Below are positions 52,692-53,722 of a DNA stretch of 64,000 nt, piece by piece. Position numbers and translations under genes: made by a program. Numbering within the stretch: the stretch's first letter is position 1; every line of letters begins with the position of its first letter. Under the pieces are notes generated by a model. The model worked only from the letters and a program-made list of their open reading frames with translations, searched no databases and was not told the DNA's origin. Source of the DNA: Candidatus Goldiibacteriota bacterium HGW-Goldbacteria-1 (lineage in GTDB: Bacteria > Oederibacteriota > PGYV01); assembly GCA_002839855.1 (NCBI GenBank), contig PGYV01000003.1:62001-126000 (forward strand), in the 5' to 3' direction.

Positions 52692-53048
52692 ATGGAAATA
52701 AGGGATAAAAAGTACTACCCAATAAGGGAAGTGGCACAGATAACGGATGTCAAAGAGTCCGTAATAAGGTTCTGGGAGCAGAACTTTGATGAATTAAAAC
52801 CCATAAAGAACAGGGTAGGGCAGAGAAAATATACAAAAAAAGACATTGATGTTATCTTTATTATAAAAAGGCTTCTTTATGATGATGAATATAAAATAAG
52901 CGGCGCGCAGAAGAAGGTAAAAGAGATTCTTGCCGCGGAAGACGGCCAGCAGCTGGAACTTTTTGAACTTGAAGAGAAATTAGGCCAGCAGAAGATTGAA
53001 GATGTTAAAAAAGGACTTATGGAGTGCCTGGAAATATTAAGGAGTTAG
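52692..53048 (+). CDS. MerR-family transcriptional regulator
   Basis: A 118-residue protein. Residues about 8-75 are the MerR winged helix-turn-helix (YYPIREVAQITDVKESVIRFWEQNFDELKPIKNRVGQRKYTKKDIDVIFIIKRLLYD). A short coiled coil forms the C-terminus. It has no Cys-based metal-binding tail, so it resembles the HTH-only MerR proteins often seen near ihfA/plsY-type operons. The inducer and target are unknown. It follows gpsA by 12 nt and precedes the tRNA array. Confidence 0.9.
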   Translation: MEIRDKKYYPIREVAQITDVKESVIRFWEQNFDELKPIKNRVGQRKYTKKDIDVIFIIKRLLYDDEYKISGAQKKVKEILAAEDGQQLELFELEEKLGQQKIEDVKKGLMECLEILRS

Positions 53049-53080: not shown

Positions 53081-53109
53081 TTGAAACAAATAGTTCACAA
53101 TGGTATATT
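53081..53109 (+). promoter_or_regulatory. Sigma70-type promoter upstream of the tRNA-Pro array
   Basis: TTGAAA (53081-53086), 17 bp, TATATT (53104-53109). The expected start, near 53116, is 30 nt before the first hairpin unit. No terminator is visible before the second tRNA, so one transcript could hold the three units and both tRNAs. Confidence 0.65.
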
Positions 53110-53145
53110 ATAAAATCTTAGTTGTGCAATAACTTATTCGTATAG

Positions 53146-53239
53146 TCGGGGCGTAGCACCTGACGATAGATGAGGAAAAGATTTATGATAGTCGTCAGGT
53201 ACACTTCCGCCTGACATGATAGATTTTATGTTTGAAAAG
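53146..53239 (+). repeat. tRNA-Pro-headed hairpin unit 1
   Basis: A unit of 94 bp. It starts with TCGGGGCGTAGC, the same 12 nt that begin both downstream tRNA-Pro genes. An inverted repeat follows (ACCTGACGA at 53158-53166, TCGTCAGGT at 53192-53200). ACACT follows the right arm, and then an AT-rich tail with ATGATAG...TTTTATGTTTGAA. No tRNA 3' half (CGCCCCGACCA) is present, so it is not a tRNA. Confidence 0.85.
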
Positions 53240-53333
53240 TCGGGGCGTAGCACCTGACGATTGATGAGGAAAACGCTTCATGATAATCGTCAGGTACACT
53301 ATCCTCTCGATAGAATAGGAAATTAAGGTAAGG
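53240..53333 (+). repeat. tRNA-Pro-headed hairpin unit 2
   Basis: 94 bp, the same head and core. The stem is perfect over 11 bp (53252-53262 with 53285-53295); an inner stem (ATGAGG with CTTCAT) closes a 6-nt AAAACG loop. Its tail differs from those of units 1 and 3. Confidence 0.85.
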
Positions 53334-53430
53334 TCGGGGCGTAGCACCTGACGATTGATGAGGAATAGCTCTTCATGATAATCGTCTGGTACACTACCTC
53401 CCAGTAATGATAGTTTTTATGTTTGAATAG
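53334..53430 (+). repeat. tRNA-Pro-headed hairpin unit 3
   Basis: 97 bp, with stem 53346-53356 against 53380-53390 and one T-T mismatch, the same inner stem and a 7-nt loop. Its tail (ATGATAGTTTTTATGTTTGAATAG) runs straight into the tRNA-Pro(CGG) gene, and a similar tail precedes tRNA-Pro(GGG). Confidence 0.85.
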
Positions 53431-53431
53431 T

Positions 53432-53506
53432 CGGGGCGTAGCGCAGTGGTAGCGCGCTTGGTTCGGGACCAAGAGGCCGGAGGTTCGATCCCTCTCGCCC
53501 CGACCA
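53432..53506 (+). tRNA. tRNA-Pro, anticodon CGG
   Basis: A full cloverleaf: acceptor CGGGGCG (53432-53438) with CGCCCCG (53496-53502), discriminator A, encoded CCA (53504-53506). The D stem is GCGC/GCGC. The anticodon stem CTTGG/CCAAG encloses the loop TTCGGGA, so the anticodon is CGG. The T arm is GGAGG-TTCGATC-CCTCT with one G-T pair. The adjacent repeat units share only its 5' 12 nt. Confidence 0.95.
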
Positions 53507-53574: not shown

Positions 53575-53617
53575 CAGGAGATTGCCTGACAGCAAGTGTC
53601 AGGGAAATTTACTCCTG
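53575..53617 (+). repeat. Two-level hairpin between the tRNA-Pro genes
   Basis: An outer stem CAGGAG (53575-53580) with CTCCTG (53612-53617) encloses an inner stem CCTGACA (53585-53591) with TGTCAGG (53597-53603) and a GCAAG loop. There is no T run, so it is unlikely to be a terminator. It sits where the hairpin units sit relative to the next tRNA, with a similar AT-rich tail after it. Confidence 0.7.
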
Positions 53618-53645
53618 AAATGACAGTTTTTATGTCCGTAAAGGT

Positions 53646-53722
53646 CGGGGCGTAGCGCAGTTGGCTAGCGCGTTCGCTTGGGGTGCGAGAGGTCGCTGGT
53701 TCAAATCCAGTCGCCCCGACCA
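53646..53722 (+). tRNA. tRNA-Pro, anticodon GGG
   Basis: The acceptor CGGGGCG (53646-53652) pairs with CGCCCCG (53712-53718), A discriminator, CCA encoded at 53720-53722. The anticodon stem TTCGC/GCGAG has one T-G pair, and the loop TTGGGGT gives GGG. The T arm GCTGG-TTCAAAT-CCAGT is normal. Together with the CGG tRNA it covers CCC/CCU and CCG codons; a UGG tRNA must lie elsewhere. Confidence 0.95.

Follow-up and report, generated by a model that had tools for sequence, protein, structure and literature searches.

Why should the DNA in front of a tRNA-Pro gene carry copies of the 5' end of that same tRNA? The question arises in a 64,000-nucleotide stretch of DNA (hereafter the window) from a phylum that, to our knowledge, has no known cultured members. 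Three head-to-tail units of 94, 94 and 97 bp occupy positions 53146-53430, and all three begin with TCGGGGCGTAGC, the 12 bases (the preceding T and the tRNA) with which both tRNA-Pro genes start. An initial annotation of this DNA had described the array in these terms, which we confirm. In a structural comparison of 13 intact units from six genomes, in which the arms of stem P2 were set by hand, the tRNA-like head is predicted to pair with the pyrimidine-rich strand after ACAC (stem P1), and P2 is exactly 10 bp long in 13/13 units. As argued below, the units are almost certainly a real conserved structured RNA element. The features of the locus are as follows, with E values from covariance model R2, which was built from 11 units.

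52692-53048, + strand: MerR-like DNA-binding gene, outside the element and given as context only
53081-53109, + strand: sigma-70-type promoter TTGAAA-17-TATATT, score 10/12, predicted start near 53116
53146-53239, + strand: unit 1 (94 bp); head 53146-53157, P2 arms 53158-53167 and 53191-53200, loop 23 nt, ACAC 53201-53204, P1 3' strand 53205-53214, AT-rich leader copy to 53239; R2 E=2.3e-23
53240-53333, + strand: unit 2 (94 bp); head 53240-53251, P2 arms 53252-53261 and 53286-53295, loop 24 nt, ACAC 53296-53299, P1 3' strand 53300-53310, then leader copy; R2 E=4.0e-25
53334-53430, + strand: unit 3 (97 bp); head 53334-53345, P2 arms 53346-53355 and 53381-53390 with one T-T mismatch, loop 25 nt, ACAC 53391-53394, P1 3' strand 53395-53404, then leader copy; R2 E=2.3e-26
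53432-53506, + strand: tRNA-Pro(CGG), the gene with the units in its leader
53575-53643, + strand: headless relic unit between both tRNA-Pro genes, before tRNA-Pro(GGG), its tRNA-like head lost
53646-53722, + strand: tRNA-Pro(GGG), the second tRNA-Pro gene, downstream of the relic

The promoter hexamers are the same, and lie 36 nt before the unit, in the window's genome (G000, 2.86 Mb) and in its congeners G001 and G002, the genus being represented by these three species. Since the same promoter stands at the same distance in all three, we predict that the precursor of tRNA-Pro carries the units as its 5' leader. No terminator-like site (a GC-rich hairpin with a direct T run) was found at the units on the + strand. 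The MerR-like gene also precedes the tRNA-Pro locus elsewhere, a synteny kept in four families of the order.

The long-hairpin fold of each unit beats 200 of 200 dinucleotide shuffles, with z values of -3.7, -4.7 and -3.4 for units 1, 2 and 3. An RNA from this region had been expected in the initial annotation to expose several tRNA 5' ends. Because the strand after ACAC pairs back to the head, the head is predicted to be sealed in P1, and that expectation is not supported. The relic between the two tRNA genes retains P1-like CAGGAG/CTCCTG and P2-like CCTGACA/TGTCAGG; it is matched by R1, a covariance model from eight genus units (E=0.0014, 19.8 kb searched), and by blastn at 80% over 53598-53656. 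Several other candidate signals were discarded: on inspection, short ORFs in the units are not conserved from unit to unit, a CsrA-like GGA loop is replaced by GGU in several units, and a k-turn is not kept outside the genus. A hammerhead-like GATGAGG..GAAA is not conserved and has no Rfam match, and matches to box C/D snoRNAs in Rfam lie far below threshold.

Every tRNA-Pro gene of the three genus genomes is preceded by units or by headless relics. The CGG locus has three units in G000 and one each in G001 and G002; the UGG locus has one in G000 and two in G002, with a partial headless relic only in G001; and the GGG gene is preceded by headless relics. In G000-G002, blastn and covariance searches found no significant unit away from tRNA-Pro. 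A survey of the stretches around all 41 tRNA genes of G000 likewise found no heads of this kind at the remaining tRNAs, with tRNA-Arg(ACG) having a different element. The counterpart of the single CGG unit of G001 is unit 2 of G000, to which blastn matches it over 117 bp at 96% identity; the single CGG unit of G002 resembles unit 1. The T-T mismatch of unit 3, remarked on from the start, is real and recurs in the units directly before tRNA-Pro(UGG) at two other loci; together with the P1 strand CUACCUCC it is common to the last unit before the tRNA in three loci. Since units of one species match particular units of another and share a mismatch, the array predates the split of the genus species. 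Unit copies have most simply been gained and lost by crossing-over between the leader and head repeats.

Does the element extend beyond the genus? With R1 we searched 45 genomes of the phylum and, at full sensitivity, the tRNA-Pro loci of the order. The genome-wide search of the phylum gave one locus outside the genus, in G006 of another family (E=5.8e-5), which adjoins the same MerR-like gene and lies directly upstream of tRNA-Pro(GGG). At full sensitivity the best matches were in G006, G010 (two units) and G013. Homologues are found in two other families of the order, again solely directly upstream of tRNA-Pro. R2 recovered two units on which it had not been trained: the second G010 unit, before tRNA-Pro(GGG) (E=5.4e-12), and the G006 unit before tRNA-Pro(UGG) (E=6.4e-8). 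In the latter locus the tRNA starts with CGGGGTG, not CGGGGCG, and the unit head has the same T. When R2 was run against 145 genomes, six were matched, all in this order; the record titles of the relatives read Candidatus Goldbacteria, Goldiibacteriota or FCPU426. Weak R2 matches in G007, G013, G014, G024 and G000 C1 have no tRNA-Pro nearby and look like chance, and viral contigs gave no match to the unit pattern. G010 has TTGAAA-17-TAAAAT upstream of its unit; a clear promoter was looked for upstream of the G006 unit and not found. Within the order, the tRNA-Pro loci of families f2, f3 and f4 and of one genus of f6 lack the element, and G007 has what was judged by eye to be a decayed unit remnant. 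These absences, together with the partial relic at the UGG locus of G001, indicate that the element is dispensable.

Evidence for a conserved RNA fold comes from P2. Compensatory double changes occur in 9 of its 10 pairs across the 13 units, and 125 of 130 cells are paired (122 Watson-Crick and 3 G-U). An alignment fitted with R1, which is biased towards the structure of that model and with which the hand-set arms concur, has double changes in 11 pairs and 27 cells, a result that none of 500 shuffles reached. When the strands are slid, pairing falls from 92% to about 50% and the signal is destroyed. At the junction of the two stems, GU.G of GUAG pairs with CAC of ACAC, leaving the A bulged. 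In one unit, that of G006 before tRNA-Pro(UGG), the junction is partly deleted, with AGC missing from one side and AC from the opposite side. The loop measures 22-26 nt in the 13 units, always contains GGA or GGU, and ends at its 3' side in AUKAKA or similar, an apparent sequence motif drawn from few independent lineages.

P1 varies in its likeness to the tRNA. In G010 it reads GGGGCGU/ACGCCCC, followed by GA, and is a near-perfect tRNA-Pro acceptor stem with both strands; its 3' strand, CGCCCCGA / CGCCCCGAC, is the tRNA-Pro 3' acceptor strand. The statement that the units contain no tRNA 3' half thus stands for the genus units and is untrue of the family. In f6, head and tRNA 5' strand have diverged. 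The genus P1 is weaker and varies chiefly by G-C to G-U changes, which would fit selection on an RNA in the tRNA's sense, as judged from few independent events.

A conserved structured RNA is marked by compensatory changes among homologues that share a genomic position, and such changes are what the tRNA-Pro loci display; the initial claim that the units are tied to tRNA-Pro and kept as RNA structure is borne out. Random decay at homologous loci, and occurrence as a dispersed repeat, had been named beforehand as findings that would count against a functional reading. Instead, homologous loci retain units with compensatory changes, and no significant occurrence away from tRNA-Pro emerged from blastn, R1 or R2; the covariance-model search of related genomes, also proposed beforehand, returned homologues solely at tRNA-Pro. 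The units could still be functionless, decaying tandem duplicates of tRNA-Pro. Both acceptor strands in the G010 P1, the relics between tRNAs and the apparent decayed tRNA-Pro copies before tRNA-Pro(UGG) in family f12 would agree with such a history. Nine compensated pairs of ten and a constant 10-bp stem are, however, unexpected under decay, and the units match neither tRNA nor Rfam. We regard this reading, already disfavoured, as extremely improbable. Duplication of a tRNA, as first proposed, may be the origin of the units, but it cannot explain their present conservation.

Other repeats of tRNA ends occur in the same lineage. In the genus, copies of the 5' ends of tRNA-Arg(ACG), tRNA-Arg(CCG) and tRNA-Phe are followed by a hairpin element of another kind, which contains AAACGATAGGAAGGTAAGGCCTTGATTTT. 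This second tRNA-head family, for which Rfam gave no match, comprises a covarying hairpin and AAACG..AGGAAGGTAAGGCCTTGATTTT..GCGTTT upstream of an intact tRNA. It was seen at loci L029 (tRNA-Arg ACG), L163, L162, L026 (1286-1425), L028, L161 (L055 677-930) and L159, and it is tandem at tRNA-Phe of G001 and missing at tRNA-Phe of G000. G001 also has 3'-end repeats downstream of tRNA-Pro, tRNA-Met and tRNA-Ser (L005 1230-1440, L054 860-1040, L059 1035-1195, L061 1340-1480). These consist of a reverse-complement T arm, a GAGCGA-rich body, and finally a duplicate of the terminal ~20 nt with CCA, and are reminiscent of rtT. The apparent decayed tRNA-Pro copies of f12 (L153, L155, L156, L157) lie directly upstream of tRNA-Pro(UGG) and have lost the 3' part and retained the 5' part. 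In the G006 tRNA-Pro(UGG) leader (L122), an exact 33-bp direct repeat of leader and head stands on both sides of the hairpin, from either target duplication or homogenisation. The tRNA-Pro units may go back to an insertion or a tandem duplication at the 5' ends of tRNAs, an origin that the other tRNA-end repeats of the genus and the 33-bp repeat both fit. Such repeats alone do not explain the fold of the tRNA-Pro element kept across families.

Could the hairpin instead be selfish or mobile, inserting just inside the tRNA-Pro 5' end so that leader and head are duplicated and the tRNA is left intact, with arrays formed by repeated insertions or unequal crossing-over? The leader and head direct repeats that flank it, identical over 33 bp at tRNA-Pro(UGG) of G006, speak for this, as do the tRNA-head repeats with a different hairpin before tRNA-Arg and tRNA-Phe, the tRNA-Phe one missing in G000, and the tRNA-Pro(UGG) of G001 without the full unit that G000 has. 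Yet no copies lie outside tRNA-Pro in the genomes searched, P2 is fixed in length and covaries across families, the position beside the same MerR-like gene is orthologous, and copy-number change is explicable by unequal crossing-over alone. We consider a mobile hairpin quite unlikely.

What, then, would the element do? Its position, common structure, covariation, restriction to tRNA-Pro and copy-number variation are directly supported. The role that we tentatively favour, with considerable reservation, is that of a structured 5'-leader element of tRNA-Pro transcripts which may act in cis in the maturation or supply of pre-tRNA-Pro. P1, built from the tRNA-Pro acceptor stem or imitating it, would stack through the bulged-A junction (GUAG/ACAC) onto the 10-bp P2, capped by the GG-bearing loop. 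The element would be transcribed with the tRNA, fold before the tRNA is made, and act in cis on pre-tRNA-Pro maturation and hence on tRNA-Pro supply. The acceptor-stem mimic might be offered to RNase P or another acceptor-binding factor, the loop being a second putative binding site. Copy number would shift by recombination between the repeated leader and head segments, with the tRNA left intact.

A trans-acting role can also be drawn from the same folds. Here the units would be precursors of separate stable RNAs of ~65 nt cut from the leader, comparable to the E. coli tyrT repeats. The folds are tandem, self-contained and stable, the GG motif of the loop is conserved and loop length is near-fixed, and the units are promoter-proximal. 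The strict linkage to tRNA-Pro and a copy number of 0-3 would nevertheless be odd for an RNA acting in trans, and the covariance searches found no copy elsewhere with its own promoter. Analysis of these points makes release as a small RNA appear unlikely, though worth keeping in view.

The predicted folding of whole transcripts bears on the relation of leader to tRNA. Unit and tRNA are predicted to fold independently in 6 of the 10 transcripts (acceptor probability at least 0.96), and the leader to pair with the tRNA 3' strand at the window locus (0.89) and in G013 (0.61), with two further loci intermediate. In these models only co-transcriptional folding would keep such pairing from damaging the tRNA. 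The predicted mispairing at these loci, partial in two of them, and the inverted repeat I2 could point to a switch in which the unit head, being the same as the tRNA 5' strand, would vie for the tRNA 3' strand, with formation of the acceptor stem then depending on leader structure. Against this, the native tRNA fold is predicted at 0.96 or more in 6/10 loci, the heads and the tRNA 5' strand have diverged in f6, and the feature is not conserved. As the mispairing is limited to some loci, a general strand-exchange switch is unsupported, and we judge it improbable. On the modelled folds, a better reading of P1 is that it closes off the tRNA-like head and so spares the real tRNA disturbance.

Still more doubtful is the idea that the unit is a straightened tRNA-Pro mimic, which would compete for prolyl-tRNA synthetase, RNase P or another tRNA-Pro-specific factor and so exert feedback control. 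One end has an acceptor stem. The other, at roughly the distance spanned by a tRNA, has a loop in which GG precedes A or U, as in the Pro anticodon (NGG-R). Three of the five non-genus units have loops with the anticodon letters of the isoacceptor concerned (GGG, GGG and UGG). The remaining non-genus loops read AGG, so the match to the anticodon may be chance.

If the element does act on pre-tRNA-Pro, this would be a tRNA gene under the control of a structured leader in which an end of that very tRNA is copied, raising a new question on the control of isoacceptor supply, for which natural variants with 0-3 copies exist. Were the element to have no function, it would still show clearly how a tRNA and its leader evolve in concert, and it would still constitute a new family of structured RNA. 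The arrangements at tRNA-Arg and tRNA-Phe suggest that tRNA-end repeats are recurrent and little studied in these genomes.

How does the element compare with known systems? Like a tRNA pseudogene or partial duplicate, it has the tRNA-Pro 5' end as its head and an acceptor-stem-like P1; unlike one, it is without D, anticodon and T arms, and P2 and the loop are conserved in their own right. ARAGORN and RF00005 detected no cloverleaf in the units and matched only the two genuine tRNA-Pro genes. With REP, BIME and other palindromic repeats it shares a short imperfect palindrome, GTAG at the hairpin foot and tandem copies. In contrast to REP/BIME or MITE-like repeats, the units are not dispersed: when G000-G002 and relatives were searched by blastn and covariance model, significant matches fell at tRNA-Pro loci only. 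A structured RNA between promoter and gene also recalls T-box and attenuator leaders, but here the downstream gene is a tRNA, there is no Rfam match and no terminator stands at the units. At the gathering-score threshold, Rfam (including T-box and leader riboswitches) gave no match other than tRNA, which upholds the initial view that the units belong to no known family. A literature search with partial journal coverage found no description of tRNA-Pro leader units.

The closest organisation known to us is that of the tandem repeats of E. coli tyrT, from which rtT RNA is reported to arise; those repeats contain the tRNA 3' end and are situated downstream of the tRNA. In both cases tandem repeats lie within a tRNA transcription unit and each bears a piece of the adjacent tRNA end. 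The units of the window differ in carrying the 5' end TCGGGGCGTAGC, with G010 alone adding the 3' acceptor strand. They also differ in lying upstream, between promoter and tRNA, and in having a covarying hairpin conserved across families; no homology with rtT has been shown. Judged on sequence, the RNA family and its mimicry of a tRNA end appear to be new in kind, a claim that is confined to these two and does not extend to function.
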